The notes under the pieces: generated by a model
Told to the model about the DNA's origin: nothing
The model's database searches: none
Seen by the model: only the letters and a program-made list of their open reading frames with translations
From: Mesorhizobium sp.
GTDB taxonomy: Bacteria; Pseudomonadota; Alphaproteobacteria; Rhizobiales; Rhizobiaceae
Direction of reading: 5' to 3'
NCBI RefSeq assembly: GCF_017306545.1
Contig: NZ_JAFKID010000024.1
Span: 1 to 64,000, forward strand
DNA length: 64,000 nucleotides
Shown here: one piece after another, positions 25,435 through 40,612 of the stretch
How positions within the stretch are numbered: position 1 is the stretch's first letter
How the letters are laid out: each line of letters begins with the position of its first letter
Translations under genes and position numbers: made by a program

Positions 25435-25988
25435 TCAGACGGCCGGGGCGGAGCGCAGAGACAGCGGCGCGAGTTCCGACAAGGGCCGGCCGCGCGGATC
25501 GTTGGCGACGATGCGGCCGGTCGCGTATTTCAGCACGTCCTTGAGCACCTTCACGGCGGCGTCGTAATCGAGGTTTTGCGGCTTGCCGTTTCGAGAAATG
25601 CAGCGCCCGTCGACGTAAACGGATTCGACCGCCCGCTCGGCTGCACAGGACAGCAGGCTGCGCAGCGGATCGTAGACCGGCTGCATGGCCGGATGCGTCA
25701 GGTCGACAACGGAGAAATCGGCCTTCGCGCCGACGGCGATGCGGGCGATGTCGGCGCGGCCGAGCGCCCGCGCGCCGGCGAGCGTCGCCATGTCCGGCAC
25801 GTCGGCAGGGGCGAGATAGAACACCGTCTTGCCGGCGATGCGGGCGCAGATCAGCGCCTGCCGCATCTCCTCCAGCATGTTGAAGGGGTAGGTGTTGGTC
25901 AAAGGCGGCACCATCAGCCGCATCGCTTGCGGCAGTACGACGAGCCGCATGGTGCGGCCGCGCGGCAGGCCGAGCGCGCTCGACGCCT
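25435..25988 (-). pseudogene. Mosaic pseudogene, 3' part: aapQ C-terminal fragment fused to an amidohydrolase C-terminus
   Basis: The frame reads EASSALGLPRGRTMRLVVLP and then MVPPLTNTY, the late cytoplasmic loop of an AapQ/BztB-type amino-acid permease. At about 25890 it switches without a stop to PFNMLEEMRQALICARIAG, LAGARALGRADIARIAVGAK and VYVDGRCISRNGKP, the C-terminal third of a TrzA/AtzA-type amidohydrolase. Neither half can function: the hydrolase lacks its barrel and metal sites. The joint falls at TNTY, where short similarity between the two parents may have helped recombination. The open frame from the internal ATG at 25950 could still be translated as a 171-residue chimera. Confidence 0.85.
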
Positions 25989-26225
25989 CCCAATGCCGAC
26001 CAGCAGCGCGCGGCCGACGCTGTCGGTCGGCTTATCGGGAATGGCCGCCTCGCTGATGACGAAGCCGGCCTGCCGCGACAGATAGCCGAACCCGGTGGCG
26101 ATGTCCTGTTTGGCGAGGTTGGCGCTGGCTGTCGCAAACATCGACCAGGCGAGCGCGGCAACCGCCGCGATCGCCAGCACCTGATAGAAAACCGCGCGAT
26201 AGCGCGCGTCGTTGATCCATGCCAT
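25989..26225 (-). pseudogene. Mosaic pseudogene, 5' part: aapQ N-terminal fragment
   Basis: From the ATG at 26225 the frame reads MAWINDARYRAVFYQVLAIA, FATASANLAKQDIATGFGYL and DSVGRALLVGIG. This is the first 78 or so residues of a general L-amino-acid ABC permease (AapQ/BztB), including its first membrane helix. At about 25990 it jumps out of frame to the late-loop fragment described in the adjoining entry. Roughly 200 central codons are missing. It lies just downstream of the aapJ remnant, the normal aapJ-aapQ order; aapM and aapP are absent. Confidence 0.85.
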
Positions 26226-26293
26226 CGCGACACCGCCGCCGGAAGGATTTGACGAGGGCGGCCTGCGCGCGAGGCGAGCGCAGGCCGGTGTCC

Positions 26294-27318
26294 TCAGCGG
26301 AACGGCGGAGCGTAGAGCAGGCCGCCCTGGTTCCACTCGGTGTTGGGGCCGCGCGTCATGCCGAGCTTGGTCTTTTCGCCAAGATTGCGCTCGAACACCT
26401 CGCCGTAGTTGCCCACCGCCTTGATGACGTTATAGCCCCACGCCTTGTCGAGCTTGAGCATCGGGCCGAGGTCGTCGGTGACGCCCAGCATGCGCTGCAC
26501 CTCGGCGTCGTCGCTCTTCAGCTTCTCGTCGACATTGGCCTGTGTGATGCCCTTTTCTTCCGCCGCCATCAGCATCCAGGCCGACCACGAAACGATGTCG
26601 CGCCAGTTGGAATCGTTCTGCCGAACGGCCGGCGCCAGCGGTTCCTTCGAGATCGTTTCGGGCAGCACCACATAGTCGTCGGGATTGTTGGCGACGGCGC
26701 GGATCGAGGCAAGGTCGGAACGGTCGGACGAGATTGCCTGGCAGCGGCCGCTGAAGAAGGCGGCGCGGTTCTCGTCCGGGCTTTCGAACACCACCATCTC
26801 GAACTTGGCGCCCTGCGCGCCGAAGAAGTCGGTGAGGTTCTGCGCCGTCGTCGTGCCGGGCAGCGTGCAGATCGCCGCGTCCTTCAGTTCCTTGGCGCTG
26901 GAAACGCCGAGTTCCTTCGGCACCATCAGGCCCTGGCCGTCGTAGAAGACGGTCGGACCGAAATCGAGGCCGAGCGAGGCGTCGCGCGAGAAAGTCATCG
27001 TCGTCTGGCGCGACAGCACGTCGATTTCGCCCGACTGCAACGCCTGGAAGCGCGTGTTGATGTTGGTGGGCACGAAATCGACCTTGTCGCCGTCGCCGAA
27101 CCCGGCGGCCGCGGCGGCGTGGCAGATGTCGGCGTCGAAGCCGCCCATGCGGCCCTTGTCGTCCGGCGCGGCGAAGCCCGGCGTCGCCAGCGAGACGCCG
27201 CAGATCAGCTTGCCGCGCTGCTTGACCGTAAGCGTATCGGCGTGGGAAACGGCCGGCGCCAGCGCGCCGAACAGGCCCAGCGCGCACACCGCGCCTGCCG
27301 ACAATAGGCTCTTTTCAT
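26294..27318 (-). pseudogene. aapJ-type general L-amino acid ABC transporter binding protein, start codon out of frame
   Basis: The body is an intact AapJ/BztA-family periplasmic binding protein: LTVKQRGKLICGVSLATPGF, GGFDADICHAAAAA, LSRQTTMTFSRDASLGLDFG, and the family-specific tail AVGNYGEVFERNLG and EWNQGGLLYAPPFR. The ATG at 27318 has an ideal GGGAGGAA ribosome site, but ATGAAAAGAGCC puts it one base out of frame with the signal peptide SLLSAGAVCALGLFGALAP. Restoring one A in the run gives MKKSLLSAGAV, a standard leader. The open frame can be extended upstream to 27391 without a ribosome site. With aapQ destroyed downstream, pseudogene is likely; a sequencing error is possible. Confidence 0.75.
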
Positions 27319-27392: not shown

Positions 27393-27406
27393 TATTGTGG
27401 ACAATA
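27393..27406. promoter_or_regulatory. GntR/FCD-type operator, site 1
   Basis: TATTGT-GG-ACAATA is a perfect 6-base inverted repeat with a 2-base centre, of the TTGTNNACAA type bound by FadR/FCD-subfamily GntR regulators. It lies between the aapJ remnant and the gntR gene at 27491. Near-identical sites occur at 29688, 38930 and 40513. Confidence 0.6.
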
Positions 27407-27490
27407 ATGGTGCGCAACCGGCAACAACGCCTTTTGAAATTTGTCTGCTAATGTGATTACGAATAGGCGGCCTAGCCGATTCTCCGTCCC

Positions 27491-28228
27491 ATGGGCCAAG
27501 CAGCCGGAGCCGATGCCGTGGAGCCAAAGCAGAGCCGCGCCGACCTCGTCTACAGCGCCCTGCGCGAAGCGATCCTCGAACAGGCGCTCCGGCCCGGAAC
27601 CAAGCTTTCGGAAGACGTGATCGCCGAGCAGTTCGCCGTCAGCCGCACCAGCGTGCGCGCCGCCCTTCAGCAGTTGCGCGGCGAGGGGCTGGTCGACTTG
27701 CAGGCCAACAAGGGCGCGTCCGTGTCCGAGCCGACGGCCGAGGACGCACGCGACGTCTTCGCGCTGAGGCACATGCTCGAAGCGGAAGTAGTGCGCCGGC
27801 TGGCCGGCCAGCTCGGCGAGCGCGATCGCGGCCGGCTGCGCGCCCATGTGCAGCAGGAGAAGCAGGCGCAGTCCGTCGGCGGCCCGGCGTCGATCCGGCT
27901 GGCCGGCGAGTTCCACATCCTGCTTGCCGAACTGACCGGTTCGCCCTCGCTGACGCGCTTCGTGCGCGAAATCGTTTCGCGCGGCTCGCTGATCCTCGCC
28001 CGCTTCGCCCGCGACCATTCCTCCGAATGCGCCGTCGACGAACACGAGCGCATCATCGCGGCCTTGCAGGCCGGCGACGCCGGCGCGGCGGAGGAACTGA
28101 TGCTGCGGCATCTGGAATCCGTTGCCGTCAGGGCGGACCTCCAGGCGCCGCCGACACGCGGCGACACCGCCGACATCCTCAAGCGCTACGCCGAGCGGCG
28201 CGGACTTTTGGCGGGTGCCGGGCGCTGA
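27491..28228 (+). CDS. GntR-family transcriptional regulator, FCD subfamily (first of two)
   Basis: The 245-residue protein has a winged helix (about 15-75: SRADLVYSALREAILEQALR, FAVSRTSVRAALQQLRGEG) and a C-terminal all-helical FCD domain (about 95-230). FCD metal-ligand-type residues occur in GEFHILLAELTG and VDEHERIIAALQAGD. These regulators usually repress until a carboxylate ligand binds. It is divergent from the aapJ remnant with operator site 1 in between. It and the GntR at 29779 are both candidates for the shared operator in this block. Confidence 0.92.
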   Translation: MGQAAGADAVEPKQSRADLVYSALREAILEQALRPGTKLSEDVIAEQFAVSRTSVRAALQQLRGEGLVDLQANKGASVSEPTAEDARDVFALRHMLEAEVVRRLAGQLGERDRGRLRAHVQQEKQAQSVGGPASIRLAGEFHILLAELTGSPSLTRFVREIVSRGSLILARFARDHSSECAVDEHERIIAALQAGDAGAAEELMLRHLESVAVRADLQAPPTRGDTADILKRYAERRGLLAGAGR

Positions 28229-28248
28229 CCCGAGGCGCCAGCCATCCG

Positions 28249-28989
28249 TTATGCCGAATCGCGGACCATGTCCTTGTGGATCGCGACTGGCGTCTTCACG
28301 GTGGGGAAATCGTAGCCGCCGACCTTGGAGGTCGCGTAACCCGCACCGACCAGCGCCTCGGCGAACTTCACCGCCGCCGTCACGCCGTCGATGACCGGGA
28401 TGCCTGTCGCCAGCGTGAGGCGCTCGCACAGCGCCGACATGCCGGCGCAGCCGAGCACGATCGCTTCCGCGCGGTCTTCCTTCTTCGCCTTGCCGATCTC
28501 GGCCATCAGCAGGCGTTCCGAGCGCTCCGGATCTTCCTCCAGGCCGAGAACCGGCAGGTCGATGGCGCGCACGTTGCGGCAATGCCGCTCGGCGCCGTAG
28601 GCGCTCACCAGCTCCTCGATGATGGGGATGGAGCGGGGCAAGGTGGTGACGACCGAAAACCGCCGGCTGACGGTCATGGCGACCTGGATGCCGGCCTGGC
28701 AGATGCCGATCACCGGTCCGCGCGCGATTTCGCGCGCCGCGTGCAGGCCCGGATCGTCGAAGCAGGCGATCACATAGGCGTCCACGCCGTCGCGCTCGCC
28801 CTTGCGGATTTCGGCCAGCATGCCCGGAACCGACAGCGCCTCGTCGGCGGCGCCCTCGATGCTGACGGGCGTTTCCTGCGGGTTGACGGCGCTGACGCGC
28901 GTCGTCGGCTGCACCACGCGCAGCGCGCTTTCATGCGCCAGCGAGGTCATGGAGGCGGTGGAATTGGGATTGATGAGAAGAATATGCAC
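28249..28989 (-). CDS. Asp/Glu/hydantoin racemase family protein
   Basis: The 246-residue protein starts with GTG at 28989 (HILLINPNSTASMT is the conserved family opening). It carries the two catalytic cysteines in YVIACFDDPGLHAAR and AIVLGCAGMSALCERL. Members racemise hydantoins, aspartate/glutamate or related compounds without cofactor. It follows the flavin-reductase gene by 11 bases, one operon. With several amidohydrolases of the dihydropyrimidinase/cytosine deaminase superfamily nearby, a 5-substituted hydantoin or similar ureido compound is a reasonable guess. Confidence 0.87.
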   Translation of the reverse strand: MHILLINPNSTASMTSLAHESALRVVQPTTRVSAVNPQETPVSIEGAADEALSVPGMLAEIRKGERDGVDAYVIACFDDPGLHAAREIARGPVIGICQAGIQVAMTVSRRFSVVTTLPRSIPIIEELVSAYGAERHCRNVRAIDLPVLGLEEDPERSERLLMAEIGKAKKEDRAEAIVLGCAGMSALCERLTLATGIPVIDGVTAAVKFAEALVGAGYATSKVGGYDFPTVKTPVAIHKDMVRDSA

Positions 28990-29000
28990 GGGCAAATCTT

Positions 29001-29639
29001 TCAACGCCGCCGGTCGGCGGGGGGATTGGCGAAATCGCTGATCGGCGGAGCCTTCAGGACGAGCTGACGATCGGAGGTGATGTAGTTGTCGGCGTGCAGG
29101 CGGGCGATCGGCTGGTAGACGTCGGGATTGACGTAGCGGCCTTCGGCGTCGAGGCAGTCGCGCCGGACGTGCATGTTCACCACTTCGCCGAGCACCAGCA
29201 CGCGGCGCGGATAATCGATCAGTCGTTCCACCCGGCACTCCATCGAGCAGGGCGCGTCGGCGACGTAACTGACGTCGATCTTGCTGCACGCCCCGGCTCG
29301 CAACCCGGCCATCTTCAACTCGTCGATCTCGCTACCGAAGCCGAGCCCGCAAATGAGCATCTGCCGCGACAGCGCCATGTCCACCATGTTGACGACGAAC
29401 TCGCCTGTGCGCCGGATGTTGGCGACGGTGTCCTTTTCGTCGCCGTTCAGGCGCGGCTGGATGCCCAGCACCACGATCGGCGGATCGTGCGAGAAAACGT
29501 TGAAGAAGCTCATCGGCGCCGCATTGTCGTGGCCGGAGGCCGAGCGCGTCGTCACCAGCGCGATCGGGCGCGGGCCGACGAAGTTCGTCAGCAGCCGATA
29601 CCGGCCTTCCGGCTCCAGCGCGGTGAAATCGAACTCCAT
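29001..29639 (-). CDS. Flavin reductase-like, FMN-binding split-barrel protein
   Basis: The 212-residue protein begins MEFDFTALEPEGRYRLLTNF and contains VGPRPIALVTTRSASGHDNA, APMSFFNVFSHDPPIVVLGI and TGEFVVNMVD, typical of the flavin reductase-like domain that binds FMN. It could supply reduced flavin to a monooxygenase or act as an FMN oxidoreductase itself; no monooxygenase is adjacent. The ATG at 29639 follows GGGAGCC; longer in-frame starts would run into the operator. It is divergent from gntR at 29779 and cotranscribed with the racemase. Confidence 0.85.
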   Translation of the reverse strand: MEFDFTALEPEGRYRLLTNFVGPRPIALVTTRSASGHDNAAPMSFFNVFSHDPPIVVLGIQPRLNGDEKDTVANIRRTGEFVVNMVDMALSRQMLICGLGFGSEIDELKMAGLRAGACSKIDVSYVADAPCSMECRVERLIDYPRRVLVLGEVVNMHVRRDCLDAEGRYVNPDVYQPIARLHADNYITSDRQLVLKAPPISDFANPPADRRR

Positions 29640-29664
29640 ATGGCGGCTCCCGATGTGATTTGAT

Positions 29665-29699
29665 TTTATGTACAATGAACCCATATAATTGTCTACAAT
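29665..29699. promoter_or_regulatory. GntR/FCD-type operators, sites 2a and 2b
   Basis: ATTGT-CT-ACAAT (29688-29699) is a perfect 5-2-5 dyad. A second copy with two mismatches, TTTATGTACAAT, lies at 29665-29676, with centres 23 bases apart. They sit between the divergent flavin-reductase and second gntR genes, placed to repress both. Confidence 0.6.
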
Positions 29700-29778
29700 A
29701 ATGCTCTCAAAATTGCGAGCGCTGCCGATTGACATTTATTTTCCCATGACGCTTTTCTGCATCACGGTGGAGACGAAA

Positions 29779-30459
29779 ATGACCGAGCGAATCGAAATAT
29801 CGACACAGCAGATCGTCGAGCGCGTCTGGCTCTCCATCGCCGAGCGGCGCCTGCGCCCCGGCGTCCAGCTCAAGGAAGAGCAGCTCGCCTCTATCTTCGA
29901 CGTCAGCCGCGCGCGCGTGCGGCAGGCGCTGGTCGCCCTCGAGCGCGACGGGCTGGTGACGATCATCCCCAATCGCGGCGCCTTCGTGTGCCAGCCCTCG
30001 GTCGACGACGCCAAGGACGTCTTTCATGTCCGCCGCTGCGTCGAGCGGCGCGTCGTCGAGCGGCTTTGCGAGGCCAACAGCAAGGCCGACCTCACCCGGC
30101 TGCGCAACCATGTCGCCAAGGAAAGGCTCGCCAACGAGAAGGACATGACGACCGACATCATCAAGCTGTCGGGCGGCTTCCATCTGTTGCTCGCCGAGAT
30201 CGTCGGCTCCGACTTCCTGTTCGGCACCATGCGCGACCTGATCGCGCGCACATCGCTGATTACCGCCGTCTACCGCAACAACAACCGCTTCAACTGCGGG
30301 CCGGACGAGCACGCCGAGATCGTCGAGGCGATCGCCAAAGGCGACGCCGAAAAGGCGATCCGGCTGATGGAGCATCACTTGGAGCATGTGGAGTCCGAAC
30401 TCGACCTCAACGAGATTCGCCGCCCCTCCAACGACCTCAGGGCGGCCTTGGCCTTTTGA
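29779..30459 (+). CDS. GntR-family transcriptional regulator, FCD subfamily (second)
   Basis: The 226-residue protein has a winged helix (about 8-70: IVERVWLSIAERRLRPGVQL, FDVSRARVRQALVALERDG) and an FCD ligand domain with GGFHLLLAEIVGSD and DEHAEIVEAIAKGDAEKA. I chose the ATG at 29779 because GGTGGAGA precedes it; upstream in-frame ATGs at 29689 and 29746 lie in or near the operator. It is convergent with the dipeptide-type ABC operon and divergent from the flavin reductase. It is the leading candidate for binding the ATTGT-N2-ACAAT sites. Confidence 0.92.
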   Translation: MTERIEISTQQIVERVWLSIAERRLRPGVQLKEEQLASIFDVSRARVRQALVALERDGLVTIIPNRGAFVCQPSVDDAKDVFHVRRCVERRVVERLCEANSKADLTRLRNHVAKERLANEKDMTTDIIKLSGGFHLLLAEIVGSDFLFGTMRDLIARTSLITAVYRNNNRFNCGPDEHAEIVEAIAKGDAEKAIRLMEHHLEHVESELDLNEIRRPSNDLRAALAF

Positions 30460-30474
30460 GCCTGAGGATCAGGC
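30460..30474. terminator. Possible hairpin between convergent gntR and dppF-like genes
   Basis: GCCTGA-GGA-TCAGGC forms a perfect 6-base stem in the 9-base gap and first codons shared by the two convergent genes. There is no T-tract, so activity is doubtful. Confidence 0.25.
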
Positions 30475-31455
30475 CGGCACCGGCACGTCTTCCACCAAGT
30501 GACAGGCGACACGCGTGTTGCTGGAAAGCGTGCGCACCGCCGGCACCTCGGCCGAGCAGCGCGCCGTCGCCAGCGGGCAGCGCGGATGGAAGGTGCAGCC
30601 GGACGGCGGCTTGAGCGGGCTCGGCACTTCGCCTGGCACGATGACGCGGTCGCGGTTCGGCTCCTCGATATTCGGAATCGTCTGCAACAGCAGCTGCGTG
30701 TAGGGATGGCGCGGATCGGCGAAGATCGTCTCGGTGTCGCCTTCCTCGACGATGCGGCCGAGATACATGACCGCGATGCGGTCGGACATGTGGCGCACGA
30801 CGCTCATATCGTGGCTGATGAACAGGTAGGTGAGGCCGAATTCGTCCTGCAACCGGCGCATCAGGTTGAGCACCTGCGCCTGCACCGAGACGTCGAGCGC
30901 CGAGGTCGGCTCGTCGCAGACGAGGAATTCCGGCTCGCTGGCGAGCGCCCGCGCGATGGAGATGCGCTGGCGCTGGCCGCCGGAAAACTCGTGCGGGAAT
31001 TTCTCGCCGTCGGACGGCGACAGGCCGACCGTCAAGAGCAGTTCCTCCACCCGGTCGCCGATTTCGGCGGCGGTCTTGCGCAGCTTCAGTTCGCGCAGCG
31101 GCTCGGCGATGATGTTCTTCACCCGCCAGCGCGGATTGAGCGAGGCGTAGGGGTCCTGGAAGATCATCTGCGCCGAGAGCGGCGCGCCGTCGCGGCCGGG
31201 CGCGAAGCGGATCTCGCCGCCGTTCGGCCTGTGCAGTCCCGTCACCAGTCGCGCCACGGTCGACTTGCCGCAGCCGCTTTCGCCGACGAGGCTCAGGCAG
31301 CCGCCGGCCGGGACAGCGAAGCTGATGTCGTTGACCGCCTGCAAAAGCTGGCGCGGCTTGCCCTCCATCACCCGGTTGAGCCAGGGCGCCGAGACGTCGA
31401 AGGTCTTGACGAGATGCTCGACGGTCAGCGCGGGTTTCGCTTCGGCACGGGTCAT
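30469..31455 (-). CDS. Dipeptide/oligopeptide-type ABC transporter ATP-binding protein (DppF type)
   Basis: The 328-residue ATPase has Walker A VGESGCGKST, signature EFSGGQRQRIS, Walker B FLVCDEPTSALDVSVQAQ and switch His in LFISHDMSVV. The C-terminal oligopeptide-transporter extension contains GCTFHPRCPLATARC. The ATG at 31455 follows GGAGGG and overlaps the stop of the previous ATPase gene. It is the last gene of a seven-gene operon running from 38685 and powers import of the ligand caught by the binding protein at its head. Confidence 0.93.
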   Translation of the reverse strand: MTRAEAKPALTVEHLVKTFDVSAPWLNRVMEGKPRQLLQAVNDISFAVPAGGCLSLVGESGCGKSTVARLVTGLHRPNGGEIRFAPGRDGAPLSAQMIFQDPYASLNPRWRVKNIIAEPLRELKLRKTAAEIGDRVEELLLTVGLSPSDGEKFPHEFSGGQRQRISIARALASEPEFLVCDEPTSALDVSVQAQVLNLMRRLQDEFGLTYLFISHDMSVVRHMSDRIAVMYLGRIVEEGDTETIFADPRHPYTQLLLQTIPNIEEPNRDRVIVPGEVPSPLKPPSGCTFHPRCPLATARCSAEVPAVRTLSSNTRVACHLVEDVPVPA

Positions 31456-32441
31456 CAGGCGGTCCCTCCGCAATTGAGCCAGCATGCGCTCATGCCGTCG
31501 CCGACCGGCGCGAGTTCGGGCCGCTCGCGCAGGCAGCGCGGCCCGGCCGACGTGCAGCGCGGATTGAAGGCGCAGCCCGGCGGAATGGCGTCCAGCCGCG
31601 GCATCGAGCCGTCGATCTGGTTGAGCCGCTCGACGCGCGCGCCGAGCGTCGGGATCGAGGCCATCAGGCCGCGCGTATAGGGGTGGGCCGGCGCGCGCAG
31701 CACCTGCTCGACCGGTCCGATCTCGATCAGCCGGCCGGCATACATCACCGCCACGCGGTCCGCCGCCTCGGCGATGACGCCCATGTCGTGCGTCACCAGC
31801 ATGACGGCGGTCTGCTTTTCCTTGCACAGCTTGCGCAGCAACGAAATGATCTGCGCCTGGATCGACACGTCGAGCGCCGTCGTCGGCTCGTCGGCAATGA
31901 CGAGCTTGGGCGACGCCGCCAGCGCCAGCGCGATCACCACGCGCTGCCGCATGCCGCCGGAAAACTGGTGCGGATACTGGTCGACGCGCTCGCGCGGCGA
32001 AGGGATGCCGACATCATGCAGCAAGGCGACCGCCCGCTCCCTCGCCTCGGCTTTGCCGAGCCCGAGATGCTGGCGGATCGTCTCCTCCAGCTGCGCGCCG
32101 ACGGTGAAGAGCGGATTGAGCGAGGTCAGCGGGTCCTGGAAGATGGCGCCGATCTCGCGGCCGCGGATCTTTTCCAGCGCGCGGTCGTCGAGATTGTCGA
32201 TGCGCCGCCCGCCGAGGCGGATTTCGCCCTCGGCGATACGGCCCGGATATTCGAGCAGGCCCTGGATCGCCAGCCCGGTCATCGACTTGCCGGCGCCCGA
32301 TTCGCCGACGACGCCGAGGATTTCCCCCGGCCGGATATCCAGCGCGACGTCCGACAGCGCCGTCACCACGCCGCGTCGGCCGGGAAACTCGACCCTCAGG
32401 TTGCGGACCTGAAGGATCGGCTCGCTGGCTGTCTCACCCAT
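31455..32441 (-). CDS. Dipeptide/oligopeptide-type ABC transporter ATP-binding protein (DppD type)
   Basis: The 328-residue ATPase has Walker A VGESGAGKSM, signature QFSGGMRQRVV, Walker B LVIADEPTTALDVSIQ and switch His in MLVTHDMGVIAEAAD. The C-terminal GCAFNPRCTSAGPRC segment is typical of this subfamily. It overlaps the downstream ATPase (TGATGA) and the upstream amidohydrolase by 8 bases, so expression is tightly coupled to that enzyme. Confidence 0.93.
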   Translation of the reverse strand: MGETASEPILQVRNLRVEFPGRRGVVTALSDVALDIRPGEILGVVGESGAGKSMTGLAIQGLLEYPGRIAEGEIRLGGRRIDNLDDRALEKIRGREIGAIFQDPLTSLNPLFTVGAQLEETIRQHLGLGKAEARERAVALLHDVGIPSPRERVDQYPHQFSGGMRQRVVIALALAASPKLVIADEPTTALDVSIQAQIISLLRKLCKEKQTAVMLVTHDMGVIAEAADRVAVMYAGRLIEIGPVEQVLRAPAHPYTRGLMASIPTLGARVERLNQIDGSMPRLDAIPPGCAFNPRCTSAGPRCLRERPELAPVGDGMSACWLNCGGTA

Positions 32442-33930
32442 GTGCGTCGTCCTCTATCGGATAGCTCGGCGGGAAGATTTCGGCCACCGGGGGGTTGCCC
32501 CAGCTTCGCTCGGGATATTTGGCGATGAGGCGGTCGTACTGCGCCTGCGCCTGCCTGCGGGCGGCGGCCATGTCGATGCCGGCGACCTTGCCGAACAGCA
32601 TGGCGACGCGGCCGTCGACGAAGGTGGCGCGCGTCACCTTGCCGGAACCGCCGGCCACCAGCGTGGTGATCGGGTCGATGGAGGGCGCCATCGCCACGTC
32701 GTCCAGCCCGAACACGGCGATGTCGGCGCAGGCGCCGGGCGCAAGCCGGCCGAGGTCGTCGCGGCCGAGCGCCCTCGCCCCGCCCAGCGTCGCCGCGTCG
32801 AACAGATCGGCGGTGCGCACCTTGTCCGGCGCGCGGTCGTTGACGCGGCAGGCGATCAAGCCGACCAGCAGGTTCATCAGCATGTCGGGCGGCGTGGTGT
32901 CCGTGCCCATGGCGATGTTGATGCCGCGCTTGCGGCAGGCCGAGAAGGAATTGAGCGTGCTGCCGCCGCGCGCCGAAACCAGCGGGCAATGGACGATGGA
33001 GACGCCGTGCCGGGCGTAGAGCCCGAGATCTTCCTCGGTGGCGTTGGTGGCATGCGGCGCGATCAGCCGATCGCTCAACAGCCCGGCGCGCGCCAGCCAC
33101 ACGGGTGCCGTGGAGCCATGCAGCTTGCGTACGGTTTCGACTTCCATGCCGCCCTGCGCCATATGCAGGCGGATCTTGCAGCCGAGGTCACGGGCGGCGG
33201 CGTCCGTGCGCTCAAGCAGGCCGAGCGTCGAGGTTTCCACCCGGTCGGGAACGAGCATGCCCCGCACCAGCCCGCCATGTCGGCCGTCCTGCCGTTCGAT
33301 GAAGGCGACGGCGTCGGCAAGGCCGGCAAGGCCGCGCGCCTCGTCGAACACCGGCTCCATGCGGCCGGGTTCCTCCAGCACCATGCCGCCGGAGCGGTAG
33401 GCGGGGCTGAGATAGACCCTGAGCCCCAGTTCGCCGGCGGCGTCGGCGGCAGCGTCGAATTCGGCGACCGTCTCGCCCCATTCGCGGTAGAACAGCGAGG
33501 CGATGGGGGCGGCCGTGGTGATGCCGTTGAGCAGAAGCTGGCCGAAGGCGAAGCGCTTCTGGAAGGCCAGTTCGTCGGGCGAATACATTTCATACGGCCC
33601 GCGCTCGACATAGGAGCGCGGCCACACGCGGCCCTTGGCCCAGCCGGGATGATGGTCGATGCCGAGGATGGTGGTGTCGAGGTCGGACAGCGCGTCGAGG
33701 TCGATCAGGCCGGGACTGACGAGCGCCTCGCCGAAGTCGATGCGGCGCGCCACCTCGCCCGAAAAGCCGTGGCCGACGAACAGGATTTCGCCGTTTTCGA
33801 ACACCACCTCGCCGTTGCGCAGCAGCCGGTGGGCGCCGTCCCTGTGGCCGAGCACCCAGCTTGCGGTGAGAAGCGTTCGCCCCTCGGGCCGGCGGCCGAG
33901 CGGCAGCGTGTCGAGGCCGGTCGCGCTCAT
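32434..33930 (-). CDS. Amidohydrolase-superfamily protein lacking the strand-1 HxH motif (copy A)
   Basis: The 498-residue protein is an AtzA/TrzN-like barrel: SYVERGPYEMYSPDELAFQK, RLHMAQGGMEVETVRKLHG, LIAPHATNATEEDL, MGTDTTPPDMLMNLL and ARALGRDDLGRLAPGACADI. It keeps the strand-5 and strand-6 histidines and the strand-8 Asp. The usual PGLIDAHTH, however, is replaced at residues 73-81 by PGLIDLDAL, so both metal-ligand histidines are missing. It has a close paralogue at 42325-43809 with the same change, so this is a subfamily trait, not an error. It lies within the importer operon. Confidence 0.87.
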   Translation of the reverse strand: MSATGLDTLPLGRRPEGRTLLTASWVLGHRDGAHRLLRNGEVVFENGEILFVGHGFSGEVARRIDFGEALVSPGLIDLDALSDLDTTILGIDHHPGWAKGRVWPRSYVERGPYEMYSPDELAFQKRFAFGQLLLNGITTAAPIASLFYREWGETVAEFDAAADAAGELGLRVYLSPAYRSGGMVLEEPGRMEPVFDEARGLAGLADAVAFIERQDGRHGGLVRGMLVPDRVETSTLGLLERTDAAARDLGCKIRLHMAQGGMEVETVRKLHGSTAPVWLARAGLLSDRLIAPHATNATEEDLGLYARHGVSIVHCPLVSARGGSTLNSFSACRKRGINIAMGTDTTPPDMLMNLLVGLIACRVNDRAPDKVRTADLFDAATLGGARALGRDDLGRLAPGACADIAVFGLDDVAMAPSIDPITTLVAGGSGKVTRATFVDGRVAMLFGKVAGIDMAAARRQAQAQYDRLIAKYPERSWGNPPVAEIFPPSYPIEDDAHG

Positions 33931-35120
33931 GGCATGTCCACCACGGCCTTGCCCTGGCGGGCGACGACACGCCCGCCCTTGACCACCAGCGGGCGCGGCG
34001 CCACGTCGACGACCGCATGGGCCAGCGTCTCGCCGGTCAGAAGGGTCAGGTCGGCGTTGCAACCTTCCGCGATGCCGTAGCCGTCGATGCGCATGACGTC
34101 GGCGCCGCCTTGCGAGACGACCGACAGCAGATGCGCCAGGTCGTTGTCGCTGCGCAGGCCGTTCTTCATGCCGATCACCTTGGCGCGGTCGAGCATGTCG
34201 GGCTGACCCCACGGTCCCCAGGTGTCGCGGATGCCGTCGCAGCCGCCGCCGACGCGGATGCCGGCTTCCTTGAGCCGCATGATCGACGGCACCGTGGCCG
34301 ACGGCGCGCCGGTGGTGAGAATGGCGACGTCGAGCGCGGCAAGCTCCTCGATCAGCCGGCCGACCCTGAGATAGTCGTTCATGCCGAGCGCGAAGGCGTG
34401 GCTGATGGCGACCTTGCCCTGCATGCCGTTGGCGCGGATGCGCTCGAACATCAGCTCCATGGTGAAGGCGCCGAGATCGCCGACCTCGTGCAGATGGATA
34501 TCGATCGGCCGGCCGTGCTTCACCGCCAGCGCAAAGAGCGCGTCGAGCTGGCCCTTCGGGTCGCGGTCGATGCCGCAGGGGTCGATGCCGCCCAGCACTT
34601 CGCAGCCCTGCCGCAGCGCCTCGTCGAGCAGTTCGACGGTGCCCGGCATGACCATGACGCCCGACTGCGGGAAGGCGACGATCTCGATGTCGATGATGCC
34701 CTTGAGCTTTTCGCGCGTCATCCACACGCCTTCGACGATGGAGAGGCCGTGCGTGGTGTCGATGTCGACATGGCTGCGGATATGGCTGGCGCCGTGCGCC
34801 GCCAGGCCGATGGCGTGGCGCATCGACTGCCGGTGCGGATCGATGCCGATCTCGGTGCGGTGCTCGCGCTCGAAATCGATGCGCCCGCGCAGCACCGCCG
34901 CCCGGTTGTTGACGTGCCAGGGCATGCCCCACGTCGTCTTGTCGAGATGGGTATGCGCGTCGATCAGGCCGGGGATGGCGATGGCACCGCCGCCGTCTTC
35001 CACCGCCATGCCGGGTTCCGGCTCGAAGCGGCCGAGGCCGGCGATCTTGCCGTTCCTGACGAGGATGTCGCAGGGCGCGCCGGCCATCGGCCGGACGTTG
35101 CGGAGCAAAAGGCTGGTCAC
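33927..35120 (-). CDS. Cytosine deaminase-like amidohydrolase
   Basis: The 397-residue protein has a complete mononuclear metal site: PGLIDAHTHLDKTTWG (HxH), DIHLHEVGD, VAISHAFALG and GGGCDGIRDTWGPWGQPDM (Asp followed by the family's W-x-P-x-G loop). This pattern is that of cytosine deaminase and related N-heterocycle deaminases, which release ammonia from an amidine-type ring carbon. It overlaps the HxH-less amidohydrolase by 4 bases and lies 7 bases after the DppC-type permease gene, so transport and hydrolysis are one unit. The actual ring substrate is not determined. Confidence 0.88.
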   Translation of the reverse strand: MTSLLLRNVRPMAGAPCDILVRNGKIAGLGRFEPEPGMAVEDGGGAIAIPGLIDAHTHLDKTTWGMPWHVNNRAAVLRGRIDFEREHRTEIGIDPHRQSMRHAIGLAAHGASHIRSHVDIDTTHGLSIVEGVWMTREKLKGIIDIEIVAFPQSGVMVMPGTVELLDEALRQGCEVLGGIDPCGIDRDPKGQLDALFALAVKHGRPIDIHLHEVGDLGAFTMELMFERIRANGMQGKVAISHAFALGMNDYLRVGRLIEELAALDVAILTTGAPSATVPSIMRLKEAGIRVGGGCDGIRDTWGPWGQPDMLDRAKVIGMKNGLRSDNDLAHLLSVVSQGGADVMRIDGYGIAEGCNADLTLLTGETLAHAVVDVAPRPLVVKGGRVVARQGKAVVDMP

Positions 35121-35127
35121 GCTTGTT

Positions 35128-36087
35128 CTACCTCAGTTTCGGATTCAGGGCGTCGCGCAGCCAGTCGCCGAGCATGTTGACCGCGACGACGAGCAGGCAG
35201 AGCTGGATGACCGGGAACAGCACGATCCACCACGAACCGGAGAACAGGAACTGGTTGCCGATGCGGATCAGCGTTCCGAGCGAAGGCTGGCTGGGCGGCA
35301 TGCCGATGCCCAGGAAGGACAGCGTCGCTTCCGTCAGGATGGCCATGCCGAAATTGAGCGTGGCGGCGACGAGGATCGGCGTCAGCGTATTGGGCAGGAT
35401 GTGCTTGCCCATGATGCGGCGGGCCGGCACATGGATGAGCCGCGCGGCTTGAACGTAGTCCTTGCCGGCCTCGACGATGGTCTGAGCGCGCACGATGCGC
35501 GCATATTGCACCCAGGCCGACAAGGCGATCGCCAGCACCAGCACCGCCGAGGCGCCGATCTCGCGCAGTTCCGGCGGCAGCATCTGCCGCACCACGGTGG
35601 AGACGAGGATGGCGACCAGAATGGTCGGGATCGACAAGGTGACGTCGCCGATGCGCATCAAAAGATTGTCGATGAAGCCGCCGAAATAACCCGACACCAG
35701 GCCGGCGCTCATGCCGATAACGAGCGACAGCGCGACGGAGGCGATGCCGATGACGATGGAGATGCGCGTGCCGTAGAGGATGGCCGACAGCATGTCGCGC
35801 CCTTGCGTGTCGGTGCCGAGCAGGAACGGCCATTCGCCGTCGGCCTGCCACAGCGGCGGCAGCTCCGCCTTCCACATGTCGAGCTGCGCCCCGTCATACG
35901 GGTTCTGCGGGGCGATCAGCGGCGCCAGCGCCGCCGTCAGGATCAAGAGCGCCAGCAGCGCGGCGCTCACCATCGCCGTCTTGCTGTGCGTGAACGACCA
36001 CCACAGGTCGCTGGCACGGATGCGCCTGAACAGCGACGGGCGCGCGGGGCGGATTTTCTGCGGGGTTTCGGAGACTTCGGCGGTCAT
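35128..36087 (-). CDS. Dipeptide-type ABC transporter permease (DppC type)
   Basis: The 319-residue inner-membrane protein has the DppC N-terminus with SALLALLILTAALAPLIAPQ and the conserved LLGTDTQGRDMLSAILYGTR. The EAA-like loop is YVQAARLIHVPARRIMGKHI, followed by a late helix ATLSFLGIGMPPSQPSLGTL. It forms the channel with the DppB-type protein encoded 15 bases upstream. Confidence 0.93.
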   Translation of the reverse strand: MTAEVSETPQKIRPARPSLFRRIRASDLWWSFTHSKTAMVSAALLALLILTAALAPLIAPQNPYDGAQLDMWKAELPPLWQADGEWPFLLGTDTQGRDMLSAILYGTRISIVIGIASVALSLVIGMSAGLVSGYFGGFIDNLLMRIGDVTLSIPTILVAILVSTVVRQMLPPELREIGASAVLVLAIALSAWVQYARIVRAQTIVEAGKDYVQAARLIHVPARRIMGKHILPNTLTPILVAATLNFGMAILTEATLSFLGIGMPPSQPSLGTLIRIGNQFLFSGSWWIVLFPVIQLCLLVVAVNMLGDWLRDALNPKLR

Positions 36088-36102
36088 TGGCCTACCATCC
36101 TG

Positions 36103-37068
36103 TTAAGCGGCGCGCAGCCTGGGATCGATCACCGCATAGGCGATGTCGACCAGCATGTTCAGCACGACGAACATGAAGGAGATGATGCACAGATACGCCG
36201 CCATCACCGGGATATCGATGAAGGTGACGGCCTGGATGAACAGCATGCCCATGCCCGGCCACTGGAACACCGTTTCGGTGATGATGGCGAAGGCAATCAG
36301 CGCGCCGACGTTCATGGCCGTCATCGTCACCACCGGCATCAGGCAGTTGCGCAGCGCGTGGCGGAAGTAGATGCGGGCGCGGGTGATGCCCCTCGCCCGC
36401 GCGAACTTCACGTAGTCGGAGCGCAGCACTTCCAGCATCTCGGCCCGCACCAGCCGCATGATGAGCGTGATCTGGTAGAGCGACAGCGAGACGGCGGGCA
36501 GGATCAGCGCCTGCCGGCCGGACGGCGTCAAAAGGCCCGTCGACCACCAGCCGATCTTGACCACGTCGCCGCGCCCGAAGGCCGGAAGCCAGCCGAGGAT
36601 GACCGAAAACACCAGGATCAGCAGGATGCCGACGACGAAACTCGGCAGCGAGACGCCGACGATGGACACGAACTGCAATCCCTCGGCATACCATCGCCCG
36701 CGCTGGATCGCCGTAAGCACGCCGAGCGGAATGCCCGCCACCAGCGAAATCAGCGTCGCCACCATGACCAGCTCGAAGGTCGCCGGGAAACGCTGCCCGA
36801 TCAGGTGCAGCACGTCCTGGCCGTTGCGGTAGGAGATGCCGAAATCACCCCTGGCGGCATTGGCGACGAAGCGCACATACTGCGTCGGCAGGCTGTCGTT
36901 GAGGCCGAGGCGCTCGCGCATGGCGGCGCGGTCGGCCTGCGAGGTCTGCTCGTTCGCCATCATCTCGACGGGGTCGCCCGCCATCTGGAAGATCAGGAAG
37001 GCCAGCATCGCGACGGCGAGCATCACGAAGACCGAGTTGATCAGGCGCCTGACGATGAAGACCAGCAT
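36103..37068 (-). CDS. Dipeptide-type ABC transporter permease (DppB type)
   Basis: The 321-residue inner-membrane protein starts MLVFIVRRLINSVFVMLAVA, followed by LNDSLPTQYVRFVANAARGD, the standard DppB opening. The EAA loop is YVKFARARGITRARIYFRHA. The ATG at 37068 is preceded by GGGAG; an in-frame GTG-type extension to 37101 lacks a ribosome site. The gene is 57 bases after the binding-protein stop. Confidence 0.92.
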   Translation of the reverse strand: MLVFIVRRLINSVFVMLAVAMLAFLIFQMAGDPVEMMANEQTSQADRAAMRERLGLNDSLPTQYVRFVANAARGDFGISYRNGQDVLHLIGQRFPATFELVMVATLISLVAGIPLGVLTAIQRGRWYAEGLQFVSIVGVSLPSFVVGILLILVFSVILGWLPAFGRGDVVKIGWWSTGLLTPSGRQALILPAVSLSLYQITLIMRLVRAEMLEVLRSDYVKFARARGITRARIYFRHALRNCLMPVVTMTAMNVGALIAFAIITETVFQWPGMGMLFIQAVTFIDIPVMAAYLCIISFMFVVLNMLVDIAYAVIDPRLRAA

Positions 37069-37125
37069 GGGATGCTCCCAATTCCCGGCGGGTCCGGGCA
37101 CCGTGGCCCGGCCCCGCCGTCGTTG

Positions 37126-38685
37126 CTACTCGGAAATATGCGTCAGCCAGCTGCGAACCTTATTGTCCGGCAGTTGCGCGATCTTGTCGATCTTGTCCGA
37201 CATCACCCAGGCCATCGGCTGCTGGTGCAGCGGCAGCATGATGATCTGGTCCTTGACCATGCCGAGCGCCTTGGTTTCCAGTGCCAGCCGCTTCGTCCGG
37301 TCCATCTCGGTCGAAGCCGCGACGATCAGCTTGTCGATGTCTGGATAACTCCAGCCGCCCCAGTTGAAGACGCCGGCATTGGCCGACCGCGTCTCGATCA
37401 TCTGCACCAGGATGGAATAGGCGTCGAGCATCGGCTCGGTCGCCCAGCCGATCAGGTAGACGTCGGCCTTGCCGCCGGTGCGCTTGGGCGCCTGCAAGGC
37501 GACCGGCGCGATGTCGAGCTGCGGCTTGAAACCGGCGCGGCTCAGCATGTTGACGATGCCCTGGCACAGTTCCTCTTCGTTCACGTAGGCGTCGGTCGTG
37601 CACACCATGGTGAACGGCATGTCGGTGGCGCCGGCTTCCGCCAGCAGCTTCTTCGACAGGTCCGGATCGTAGGACAGCGGCGTGTCGAGATCGGCCGAAT
37701 AACCCGGGATCTCGGGCGCCACGATCTCGCCGGCGGTGCGCGACTTGCCGCGCATGATGCGTTGCTGGATCAGCTTGTGATCGAGCGCATGGGCGAAGGC
37801 CTGGCGCACGCGCAGGTCGTTGAACTTGTTGTCGTCGCCGTTGTCGAGCTTCGGCTTGCGGTTGAAGCCGATCATGATGGTGCGCAGGTCGGTGCGCTCC
37901 ATCACCTTGAGGCCGGGCTGCGCGGACAGCCGCGGCAGGTCCTGCGAGGGCGCGTTGTCGGTGAAGTTGACCTCGCCCGACAGCAGCGCCGAGACGCGGG
38001 TGGCGGCCGAAACGATGGGCGTGAACTCGATGCGGTCGATGTTGGACTGCGACTTGTCCCACCAGTTCGGGTTCTTCACCAGAACGGTCTTGGAGTCGGG
38101 CACGCGGCTTTCCAGCATGAACGGGCCGGTGCCGTTGGTGTGGTAGGTGGCGTAGCCCTCGATCTTGGCGCCGACGTCGGTCGGCTTTTCGCTGTCGTTG
38201 TCCTTCAGCCAGGTCGCGTCGAAGATATGGATGTTGGTGAGGTCGTTGAGCAGCAGCGGATAAGGACCGGTCAGTTCGATATCGACGGTGTAGTCGTCGA
38301 CCTTGGTGGACGACTTGTAGGCCGGCAGGTTGCCGCGCAGCGGCGAAACCGGATCGCTCACCCGCTTCAGCGAGGCGAGCACGTCGTCGGCGTTGAAGTC
38401 GGCGCCGTTGTGGAATTTGACGCCCTTGCGCAGATGGAAGCGCCAGACCGTATCCGACACCGTCTCCCAGGAGGTCGCCAGCGCCGGCTCGATCTTGAGA
38501 TTGGCGTCGTAGCGGACCAGGCCTTCATAGACATGGTTCAGGAAGGCGAGCGTGAAACTGTCCCCGTAGGAATAGGGGTCGAGCGAGAAGATGTCGTGCG
38601 AGGCGCCCCATTTGAGGGTCGCCGCATGACCGGGAAGAACCAGGCTCAATGCCAGTGTGGCCGCCAGGCCGAGTTGTTTCAGCAT
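37126..38685 (-). CDS. Dipeptide-type ABC transporter substrate-binding protein (SBP family 5), copy A
   Basis: The 519-residue periplasmic protein has a signal peptide at residues 1-21 (MLKQLGLAATLALSLVLPGH). The mature part is typical SBP_bac_5: LKWGASHDIFSLDPYSYGDS, FLNHVYEGLVRYDANLKIEP, WRFHLRKGVKFHNGADFNAD and NGTGPFMLESRVPDS. It heads the importer operon. It is closely related to the orphan binding protein at 40613, and its promoter contains operator site 3. The amidohydrolases in the operon suggest a small N-containing ligand rather than a true dipeptide. Confidence 0.93.
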   Translation of the reverse strand: MLKQLGLAATLALSLVLPGHAATLKWGASHDIFSLDPYSYGDSFTLAFLNHVYEGLVRYDANLKIEPALATSWETVSDTVWRFHLRKGVKFHNGADFNADDVLASLKRVSDPVSPLRGNLPAYKSSTKVDDYTVDIELTGPYPLLLNDLTNIHIFDATWLKDNDSEKPTDVGAKIEGYATYHTNGTGPFMLESRVPDSKTVLVKNPNWWDKSQSNIDRIEFTPIVSAATRVSALLSGEVNFTDNAPSQDLPRLSAQPGLKVMERTDLRTIMIGFNRKPKLDNGDDNKFNDLRVRQAFAHALDHKLIQQRIMRGKSRTAGEIVAPEIPGYSADLDTPLSYDPDLSKKLLAEAGATDMPFTMVCTTDAYVNEEELCQGIVNMLSRAGFKPQLDIAPVALQAPKRTGGKADVYLIGWATEPMLDAYSILVQMIETRSANAGVFNWGGWSYPDIDKLIVAASTEMDRTKRLALETKALGMVKDQIIMLPLHQQPMAWVMSDKIDKIAQLPDNKVRSWLTHISE

Positions 38686-38929
38686 TCGGTTTGCTCCGCT
38701 TCTGGAAGGTTCGCCTCCTTGCACGGAGGTCTCTTTCGGTTGCCTGTATAGGATCGTCGACCGGCGACGGCTTTCCGCCGCCGCGTTCGCAACTCTCCCC
38801 GGGCCGAGGCGCAATCATCTGCCTGGTTCAAAGCGCCCTCGGTTCTCCTCCGGGAAAGCGCCGCTCGTGGACCAATGCCTCCGTCCAACTGCGCCGACGA
38901 TAAGTCTCGCCGAAAACAATGTCAACTAA
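38686..38929. other. Intergenic region before the importer operon
   Basis: About 240 bases upstream of the binding-protein start hold no convincing gene. With the operator at 38930-38941 it must contain the operon promoter. A short GC-rich frame on the minus strand is continuous with the signal peptide but has no ribosome site. Confidence 0.4.
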
Positions 38930-38941
38930 ATCGTAGACAAT
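38930..38941. promoter_or_regulatory. GntR/FCD-type operator, site 3
   Basis: ATCGT-AG-ACAAT matches the ATTGT-N2-ACAAT consensus at 9 of 10 positions. It lies about 250 bases upstream of the importer operon start and 37 bases downstream of the amidohydrolase stop at 38978, in an AT-rich patch. Confidence 0.5.
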
Positions 38942-38977
38942 TTTTCCGCTGTTTTGGCGGCAAAATCGAGGCGCCCG

Positions 38978-40453
38978 TCAAACGGCGGGCGGCGCCGGCG
39001 GAACCACCTTCTCGCTGAAGGTCCGGTACAGTTGACCCCAGCCCGGATCGTGCATGTGCGCCTGCAAGCCGGCCCGCTCGGCCAGCGCCAGCGCCTCGGC
39101 CTGCCCGAGTTCCAGCGCCGCGCCCATGTCGGCGGTCAGCACCGTGCCCGCCTCCATGAGAACGCGGCCGTCGACGATGACGGTATCGACGTCGCTGCCC
39201 AGCACCTGGTGGACAAGCCGATGCACCGGCATCCAGTTCGGCATGAGATGCGGCTTGCGCATGTCGACGATGGCGATGTCGGCCTTCTTGCCGACCTCCA
39301 GCGAACCGATCTCGTGATCCATGCCGATGGCGCGGGCGGCGTCGATGGTGATCATCTCGAACACCTTGCCGGGCGGCAGGTGGTAGCGGTCGTGGTTGTG
39401 CAGCAGGTGCTGCGTCGCCTGCGCCGTCCGGGCGATCTGGAACATGTCGAAATGCCGGCTGGGCGCCGCGCCGTCCGAGGTGATGGCGACCGGAACGCCC
39501 CTCGCCATCATTTGCAGGATCGGCGTCGAGCGGCCGGGCGGCGCATGGGTGACGTAGGTCCCCGTCTCGGCCAGGATGTCGATCTCCTCGTGCGAGATGC
39601 CCCAGCAATGCTGGAGGTGCACGTCGGGGCCGAGCAGCGCGTTTTCCTTGTCCTGGAAAGCCATGCGGATCTGGCCGGCAAAGGCGTCGGAATGGATGCG
39701 GACGCCCCATTTGCGCGCGGTTTCGCGCACGCGGCGGGCCTGCATGCGGTCGTCCGCCGTCAGGTTGACGGCGCAGTCCGGCGTCGAGGCGTTGGACGGC
39801 TCGACCGACGGCACGATGGTGAACGGCGTCAGGAAAACCTTGATGCGTCCGTCGGCGTTGCCGTTCACCGTCTCGATCACCGCCTCCGCGCCTTCGATCA
39901 TCTCCTCGAAGGAAACCGAATGCCGCTCGGGGCGGCCGCTGTCCCAGCGCGTCACCGACTGCGGCCACGGCAGGCCGGCGGGACCGACGCAGACGATTTC
40001 GCGCAAGCCCAGTTCGGCATAGGCGCGGGCATGGTTGATGGCGAAGACGGGGTCGTCGCTGCGCGGCATGGAGGTGATGATGGAGGCCGCCGTCGTCACC
40101 CCGGCGCGCAACCGTTCCAGGCCGGAGACGAGGCCGTCCGCATACCAGAACTCCCGCGTCACGTAATGGTAGTACATCGGCGTGACGATACGCATCCACA
40201 GCGCGTTGGTGTCGGCGGCGATGCTGCGGATCAGCGAATGGCCGGCATGGCCGTGCGCGTCGATCAGGCCCGGAATGACGAGCCTGCCACGGCAGTCGAC
40301 GACCTTCTTGCCGGCATGGCGGGGCGCCAGCTCGGCCGCCGTGCCGATATCGACGATCCGGTCGCCGGCGGTCGCCAGCGCGCCATCCTCGATGATGCGG
40401 CGCGTCCCGTCGACGGTGACGATCGTCCCGTGAAGCAGGAGAAGTCCATCCAT
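38978..40453 (-). CDS. Amidohydrolase family protein (TrzA/AtzB/methylthioadenosine-deaminase-like)
   Basis: The 491-residue metal-dependent hydrolase has a full active site: PGLIDAHGHAGHS (HxH), IHSDAFAGQ, HLQHCWGISHEEIDILAE and VAITSDGAAPSRHFDMF (strand-8 Asp). The C-terminus has IGSLEVGKKADIAIVDMRKP. Related enzymes deaminate or dechlorinate triazines and deaminate purine derivatives. It is divergent from the binding protein at 40613, with two operator copies between them. The frame is open far upstream, but the ATG at 40453 is where family similarity begins. Confidence 0.88.
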   Translation of the reverse strand: MDGLLLLHGTIVTVDGTRRIIEDGALATAGDRIVDIGTAAELAPRHAGKKVVDCRGRLVIPGLIDAHGHAGHSLIRSIAADTNALWMRIVTPMYYHYVTREFWYADGLVSGLERLRAGVTTAASIITSMPRSDDPVFAINHARAYAELGLREIVCVGPAGLPWPQSVTRWDSGRPERHSVSFEEMIEGAEAVIETVNGNADGRIKVFLTPFTIVPSVEPSNASTPDCAVNLTADDRMQARRVRETARKWGVRIHSDAFAGQIRMAFQDKENALLGPDVHLQHCWGISHEEIDILAETGTYVTHAPPGRSTPILQMMARGVPVAITSDGAAPSRHFDMFQIARTAQATQHLLHNHDRYHLPPGKVFEMITIDAARAIGMDHEIGSLEVGKKADIAIVDMRKPHLMPNWMPVHRLVHQVLGSDVDTVIVDGRVLMEAGTVLTADMGAALELGQAEALALAERAGLQAHMHDPGWGQLYRTFSEKVVPPAPPAV

Positions 40454-40512
40454 GACTGATACCCTCGGTTGTGCGGCGGCAAGCAAATTCGATGTCGATG
40501 TTCGGCACCTTA

Positions 40513-40536
40513 AATGTCGACAATGTCGTTGACAAT
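40513..40536. promoter_or_regulatory. GntR/FCD-type operators, sites 4a and 4b
   Basis: AATGT-CG-ACAAT (40513-40524; 9 of 10) and GTCGT-TG-ACAAT (40525-40536; 8 of 10) are adjacent, 12 bases apart. They lie midway between the divergent amidohydrolase (start 40453) and binding-protein (start 40613) genes. Confidence 0.5.
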
Positions 40537-40612
40537 AGAAATGACGGCCACCATAATCCCGCCGGAAAATGCACATCGGTCGCGCAGCGACATACGACAT
40601 GAGGGAGAGAGC

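Follow-up and report, generated by a model that had tools for sequence, protein, structure and literature searches.

What joins the importer, amidohydrolase, racemase and flavin reductase genes that lie close together in a 64,000-nucleotide stretch of Mesorhizobium sp. (contig NZ_JAFKID010000024.1, positions 1 to 64,000; hereafter the window), and which regulator would hold them together? An earlier note, made from the sequence alone, had proposed that ATTGT-N2-ACAAT dyads tie four promoter regions of a 13-kb block into one candidate regulon, with two FCD-type GntR proteins, here called GntR1 and GntR2, lying inside it. Herein we report that the dyad is conserved with the orthologous regulator beside gntR2 in relatives, eight of 52 upstream regions excepted. 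We consider it highly probable that ATTGT-N2-ACAAT is the GntR2 operator and that GntR2 is an autoregulated repressor of the importer and enzyme genes, a reading that rests on this footprint in relatives.

The pattern ATTGTNNACAAT (ATTGT-N2-ACAAT) was scored with mismatches counted per copy, and all six dyad positions that had been claimed were matched exactly by the scan:

27394 to 27405, no strand: perfect dyad ATTGTGGACAAT in the gap between the aapJ remnant and gntR1, centre GG/CC
29688 to 29699, no strand: perfect dyad ATTGTCTACAAT in the flavR/gntR2 gap; it shares bases with the end of the predicted gntR2 -10 element
29665 to 29676, no strand: partner dyad TTTATGTACAAT with 2 mismatches, 23 bp from the 29688 copy and over the predicted gntR2 -35/-10 spacer
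38930 to 38941, no strand: dyad ATCGTAGACAAT with 1 mismatch, in front of sbpA and the importer genes, just 5' of the predicted -35 element
40513 to 40524, no strand: dyad AATGTCGACAAT with 1 mismatch in the gap between AH3 and sbpB
40525 to 40536, no strand: abutting partner dyad GTCGTTGACAAT with 2 mismatches, containing the TTGACA -35 element of the predicted sbpB promoter

The dyads had also been described as confined to the control regions of the block, which holds in the 64-kb window for copies with no or one mismatch but not for those with two, of which five lie elsewhere. Altogether the window has 11 copies with at most two mismatches, more than every one of 100 shuffles (mean 4.8, maximum 9). 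Across the genome (4,818,058 bases in 66 contigs), where the earlier note had recommended a scan, the perfect pattern occurs twice, both times in the block (27394 and 29688), and copies with at most one mismatch number 29 (4 in the 13-kb block), compared with 13 for the reversed control pattern. With the other 25 copies as background, 0.068 sites are expected in the 13,144-bp block (P(≥4) = 8.6e-7), a partly circular value that looks better than it should, the motif having been derived from those same sites. According to a crude gene caller, these 25 copies divide into 13 intragenic and 12 intergenic ones, two of the latter without a called gene nearby. The genes at the five of these 12 intergenic sites that were scanned (DegP-like, PpsR-like, aldehyde dehydrogenase, outer membrane protein and GGDEF) include none obviously related to the block.

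Because the genome enrichment is partly circular, the non-circular evidence is the footprint beside gntR2 in relatives. As the earlier note had stated, the block encodes two FCD-type GntR proteins, and both score above the Pfam cut-offs for the GntR helix-turn-helix and FCD domains:

29779 to 30459, plus strand: gntR2, FCD-type GntR regulator, the best candidate for owner of the operator (Pfam GntR and FCD; start codon chosen by eye)
27491 to 28228, plus strand: gntR1, FCD-type GntR paralogue, 42% to gntR2 (Pfam GntR and FCD)

Of 297 family genomes, 33 contain a GntR2 relative at E ≤ 1e-50, and none of the four other same-genus genomes listed does. The scan of the named collection used the best 80 of 133 gntR2 loci, which together with three plasmid loci and the window gave 84 upstream regions; hosts of gntR2 loci include Phyllobacterium, Aminobacter, Mesorhizobium, Rhizobium, Agrobacterium, Sinorhizobium/Ensifer and the Brucella/Ochrobactrum group, as well as Nitratireductor, Inquilinus, Gemmobacter, Cypionkella, Pseudochrobactrum and others. 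The best dyad had 0, 1, 2 or 3 mismatches in 63, 11, 7 and 3 of the 84 regions, respectively, and in 35, 9, 6 and 2 of the 52 that are non-redundant. This means that 44 of 52 regions carry a dyad with at most one mismatch; same-region shuffles contain one in 1.0% (0.02% for a perfect dyad), and seven control palindromes match within one mismatch in 0-1 of the 52. The main dyad lies mostly 81-114 bp before gntR2 residue 12 (window numbering). Among the 44 non-redundant regions with such a main site, a second dyad with at most three mismatches stands towards flavR at 22 bp in 28 and at 23 bp in 4, the window being one of the latter; since this spacing recurs in relatives, the weak copy at 29665 is a conserved partner. 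The surroundings are likewise preserved, with nine core genes syntenic in 64 of 83 loci. Two observations on the collection may be added. In loci L160, L167, L171 and L178, from the Brucella/Ochrobactrum group, the racemase gene race has on its left an additional GntR2-like gene (64-73%), which carries a perfect dyad of its own; and locus L196, in a record titled Bacillus subtilis SK6B4, is Pseudochrobactrum-like, the assembly being probably contaminated or mislabelled.

The other genes of the candidate regulon are the following:

28249 to 28989, minus strand: race, Asp/Glu/hydantoin racemase family, nearest solved structures hydantoin/allantoin racemases, with Cys76 and Cys181
29001 to 29639, minus strand: flavR, flavin reductase family, nearest solved structure 2-nitrobenzoate nitroreductase
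30469 to 31455, minus strand: oppF-type ATPase (domain and family profiles)
31455 to 32441, minus strand: oppD-type ATPase (domain and family profiles)
32434 to 33927, minus strand: AH1, amidohydrolase homologue of the PRK06151 family, HxH region reading DLDALSDLD, start uncertain
33927 to 35120, minus strand: AH2, PRK05985 family, AtzC/cytosine-deaminase-like, with complete active-site motifs
35128 to 36087, minus strand: oppC-type permease (domain and family profiles)
36103 to 37101, minus strand: oppB-type permease (domain and family profiles)
37126 to 38685, minus strand: sbpA, SBP_bac_5 binding protein (family profiles)
38978 to 40453, minus strand: AH3, ATZ/TRZ-like amidohydrolase, HxH present, no HxxE
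40613 to 42190, plus strand: sbpB, second SBP_bac_5 binding protein, 59% to sbpA (family profiles)
42325 to 43809, plus strand: AH4, PRK06151 family, paralogous to AH1 (73%) and without a dyad upstream

When dyads with at most one mismatch were counted gene by gene (window row included, similar rows not removed), they were found 5' of sbpB in 33 of 38 rows, of AH3 in 31 of 31, of oppB in 32 of 73 and of aapJ in 5 of 5 (the window and four orthologues in named loci), so that the proposed arrangement of one operator shared by four promoter regions beside an FCD-type GntR gene recurs in many relatives. The 12-bp tandem seen at 40513/40525 is present in 15 of the 38 sbpB rows. No dyad was found upstream of AH4 in any of 16 rows; in the window AH4 comes after sbpB, with which it is presumably cotranscribed. 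Being 59% alike, SbpA and SbpB plausibly feed one and the same importer. Another Opp-type ABC operon, at 45751-49264 on the far side of recQ and close to the block, has no dyad with at most two mismatches.

Scans with sigma-70-like consensus elements, which found one and two promoters compared with 0.3 and 0.4 in shuffles, place the dyads relative to predicted promoters. The predicted gntR2 promoter (TTGATT-18-TATAAT, 29660-29689) has the partner dyad over its spacer and the main dyad at the end of its -10 element, while the -35 element of the predicted sbpB promoter (TTGACA-17-CATAAT, 40529-40557) lies inside the second operator copy. Repression by occlusion fits gntR2 and sbpB, since their dyads overlap these elements. 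We therefore envisage, as a working model, that a GntR2 dimer would bind each dyad, the partners at 22-23 bp or 12 bp probably accommodating cooperating GntR2 dimers or a tetramer, and that GntR2 would repress its own gene, flavR-race, sbpB, AH3 and sbpA-oppBC-AH2-AH1-oppDF, and probably also control gntR1 and the aapJ remnant. An intermediate of the imported compound might then bind the FCD domain and release GntR2, which would jointly induce the Opp-type importer with its two binding proteins, the AtzC/cytosine-deaminase-like AH2, the AtzA-like AH3, the two amidohydrolase homologues with altered metal sites (AH1 and AH4), the racemase and the flavin reductase. What the sequences themselves show is the operator, its conservation, the overlap with two predicted promoters and the gene content; GntR2 binding, the direction of regulation and the effector are what we infer.

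Several observations weigh against this model. Eight of the 52 non-redundant gntR2 regions are without a good dyad; Aminobacter/Mesorhizobium soli rows (L120, L124, L131, L143, L153) have two mismatches, three of them reading TTGGTACACAAT, and Pseudochrobactrum-type rows have two (L192) or three (L193, L195). At sbpA, a site with at most one mismatch is present in 17 of 28 rows and missing from 11, and the promoter scan was negative at aapJ/gntR1 and AH3. Other FCD GntR genes outside the locus adjoin an identical dyad (L207-L209), and the motif alone therefore cannot name its owner. Finally, the operator of the predicted sbpA promoter (TTGACA-17-TATCGT, 38925-38897, minus strand) lies just upstream of the -35 element, a position that is also compatible with activation. 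We nonetheless regard an activating or dual role of GntR2, in place of simple repression, as unlikely, given that the gntR2 and sbpB sites cover predicted promoter elements; divergent autoregulation is, moreover, typical of repressors in this regulator family.

Slightly less likely still is that GntR1, or GntR1 and GntR2 equally, own all four sites. GntR1 is an FCD GntR protein within the block, a perfect dyad lies 86 bp before its start, and its orthologues in L108-L110 adjoin a perfect dyad as well. The two central bases of the dyads, however, differ with the type of regulator and speak against equal ownership. The window centres are GG, CT, AG and CG, none of them AT. Upstream of gntR2, 72 of 74 sites with at most one mismatch have CT, TG, AG, CG or CA centres, with CC and AT once each. 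In the upstream regions of 29 GntR1 relatives (48-65% identity), a dyad with at most one mismatch was present in 7, one with two mismatches only in 8 and none in 14, and the centres were mostly AT, namely ATTGTATACAAT in L047-L049 and also ATTGTATACGAT and ATTGCATACAAT. The difference tracks the residue that follows VSR in the regulator: among 60 non-redundant regulator/site pairs out of 116, from which regulators without a dyad of at most one mismatch were dropped and of which one has Gly, Thr (GntR1 type) goes with an AT centre in 6 of 8, whereas Ala (GntR2 type) does so in 1 of 51 (Fisher 4e-6, kinship ignored). Two Thr regulators are exceptions, among them the GntR1 of the window itself, whose neighbouring site has the centre GG. 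In our reading, the residue after VSR corresponds to helix position 39 of a FadR-subfamily survey, which reports a correlation of that position with the central bases and a non-significant trend of Thr to A/T (PMC4494728).

Because GG is rare beside both regulator types, only three of the four window centres are clearly GntR2-like, and GntR1 could still own the site at 27394. Its wider role is doubtful, since no window site has the AT centre typical of its dyad-bearing relatives; this weakens GntR1 as main owner, on a GntR1-side sample that is thin. The sites also persist without gntR1: no gntR1 match was found in the 83 gntR2 loci, some Ensifer-type genomes carrying the gene elsewhere, and GntR1 at E ≤ 1e-50 is absent from 26 of the 33 family genomes that have GntR2. 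In L145, L172 and L235, aapJ has a CT- or AG-centred site with no gntR1 in the stretch covered. GntR1-like proteins (50-56%) precede a homologous sbpA-opp-AH operon in L111-L113 and L115, and the two regulators therefore serve related operons. Read most simply, the window promoters are under GntR2, and GntR1 is either a passenger or binds as a second protein at 27394.

That an unrelated regulator binds the dyads, or that they are chance or AT-rich promoter sequence, is very improbable, for although the TTGACA inside the 40525 copy means that some conservation could be promoter, the shuffles and seven control palindromes led us to reject a chance or promoter-only origin, and the near-perfect symmetry, the variety of centres and the conservation of the tandem spacing at 22 and 12 bp point the same way.

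Among the matches listed, relatives have at least 22 perfect sites outside the locus, and 13 of these 22 are without an adjoining homologue of a block gene; notable exceptions are L211 (a second sbpA-race), L215 (aapJ) and L207-L209 (other GntR genes). Near 3030 in L199-L201, three genomes of one genus share a conserved perfect dyad ATTGTCTACAAT (on either strand), and the gene beside it encodes GGDEF/EAL domains (domain scan of L200 only), with no clear link to the block.

Turning to the enzymes, the earlier note had counted four amidohydrolases, which stands for family homologues and does not for AH1 and AH4 as working hydrolases, as these have neither HxH nor the usual catalytic Glu. At the HxH positions, placed by alignment to solved relatives, D-x-L is found in 75 of 75 (AH1) and 19 of 19 (AH4) aligned orthologue rows with letters; the altered stretch is DLDALSDLD in AH1, with F in place of the last L in one row, and D[LI]DALSD[LI]D in AH4. 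The Glu of HxxE is Gln in 75 of 75 AH1 rows and 19 of 20 AH4 rows (Arg in the other). AH1 and AH4 thus cannot be ordinary HxH hydrolases, because the HxH ligands and catalytic Glu, although the positions are conserved, have been replaced. AH3 keeps HxH, His, His and Asp, with HSDAF in place of HxxE in 30 of 30 rows. In AH2, HTH, HLHE, SH and CDG are invariant in 75 of 75 rows, and its nearest solved structures are 6nbo (named N-isopropylammelide isopropylaminohydrolase) and then 2qt3, which we take to be AtzC. Cytosine deaminase has a catalytic Glu. As AH2 has Glu at HLHE like that enzyme, where 2qt3 has Asp (HIHD), we would guess from sequence that AH2 may be a deaminase.

The racemase matches solved racemases by sequence (3qvj, 8.9e-62; 5lfd, 6e-42) and has both Cys76 and Cys181, presumably the catalytic pair. 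No monooxygenase is annotated in three annotated loci, and no further search was made. Against the allantoinase profile TIGR03178 (cut-off 357.85), AH2 and AH3 score 25.4 and 41 bits, and AH1 and AH4 are absent among the matches listed; against the D-hydantoinase profile TIGR02033 (cut-off 393.25), AH2 scores 23.9 bits and the other three are absent among the matches listed. A hydantoinase, allantoinase or classical triazine pathway was rejected on these profile scores and on the loss of HxH in AH1 and AH4. The earlier note's suggestion of a hydantoin, ureido or N-heterocyclic compound is a reasonable guess; we infer that the substrate is an N-heterocycle, purine-, hydantoin- or pterin-like. 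Two loci of relatives give a hint towards a purine-like compound: in L209, a GntR gene has the same dyad, with a guanine deaminase gene ~1.1 kb from the site, and in L216 the AT-centred ATTGTATACAAT is flanked by an NCS1 allantoin-permease-like gene, which it precedes by 113 bp, and on the other side by an AraC-type gene.

At the left edge of the block, the remains of a further operon adjoin the 27394 site:

26294 to 27318, minus strand: aapJ remnant (SBP_bac_3); the ATG at 27318, which has a ribosome site, is in another reading frame than the gene body
25456 to 26273, minus strand: deletion-scarred permease remains and a PRK06151-like C-terminus behind aapJ

The name of remnant was apt, since the well-placed start codon is out of frame and the operon behind is deletion-scarred, with 25456-26273 reduced to the beginning of the first permease-like frame, a piece of permease C-terminus and the final third of a PRK06151-like amidohydrolase. 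Relatives have a permease gene after aapJ (L215) and a PRK06151-like gene further on (L108-L110), the L108 copy with HxH intact. A tentative idea, to be taken as a whole, is that GntR2 captured the decaying GntR1-aapJ promoter here, the operator centre having left the AT form that accompanies close GntR1 orthologues, and that the block encodes an undescribed catabolic route for a natural N-heterocycle in which the two altered PRK06151 homologues, almost invariant at the replaced positions in 75 and 19-20 aligned orthologues, carry out a non-hydrolytic or differently metalled step.

Taken together, a set of ABC, amidohydrolase, racemase and flavin reductase genes with vague annotations becomes a candidate co-regulated unit with a defined operator, common to rhizobia, Brucella/Ochrobactrum-group bacteria and some Rhodobacterales. 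With the operator defined, the substrate is findable, as any compound that induces an operator reporter. The analysis also draws attention to an amidohydrolase subfamily whose metal site is altered in a conserved way, and the locus may exemplify, in nature, how paralogous FCD regulators separate their operators by two central bases. Among the papers listed by searches of open-licence PubMed Central text, judged by titles and the starts of abstracts, we found neither this gene set nor this operator described.

The s-triazine pathway of AtzA, AtzB and AtzC, names that we assume for the nearest structures from their PDB titles, resembles the present system in that atrazine-pathway enzymes are among the nearest solved relatives of AH3, AH1/AH4 and AH2; it differs in that AH1 and AH4 are without HxH, AH2 has Glu where 2qt3 has Asp, and an importer is built in here. 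HpxS-hpxAB is the allantoin regulon of Klebsiella. It shares with our locus an FCD GntR protein and a 2-nt spaced site, the spacing being stated for HpxS in the survey (PMC4494728), and race is nearest to hydantoin/allantoin racemases. Unlike that regulon, the present one has no recognised allantoinase and combines an Opp-type importer with AtzC-like and atypical amidohydrolases and a flavin reductase. The same survey gives a GT-N(2-3)-AC consensus core, with a 2-nt GT-AC spacing in some FadR-subfamily groups (PMC4494728), to which the GT-N2-AC palindrome in gntR2's own divergon, the FCD domain and the placement of the site in the regulator divergon conform, whereas the gene content, the tandem 22/12-bp pairs and the two regulator types with different centres set our locus apart. 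The kind of system, an FCD-type GntR regulon, is thus already known, since comparable operators exist, such as those of Atu1419 from Agrobacterium fabrum, an FCD GntR protein that has several 2-nt spaced palindromes (ATGTATACAT) in one regulon and forms a tetramer that can bridge two sites (PMC7797058). Atu1419 controls a hydroxycinnamate pathway from sites 109-190 bp apart, compared with 12-23 bp here.

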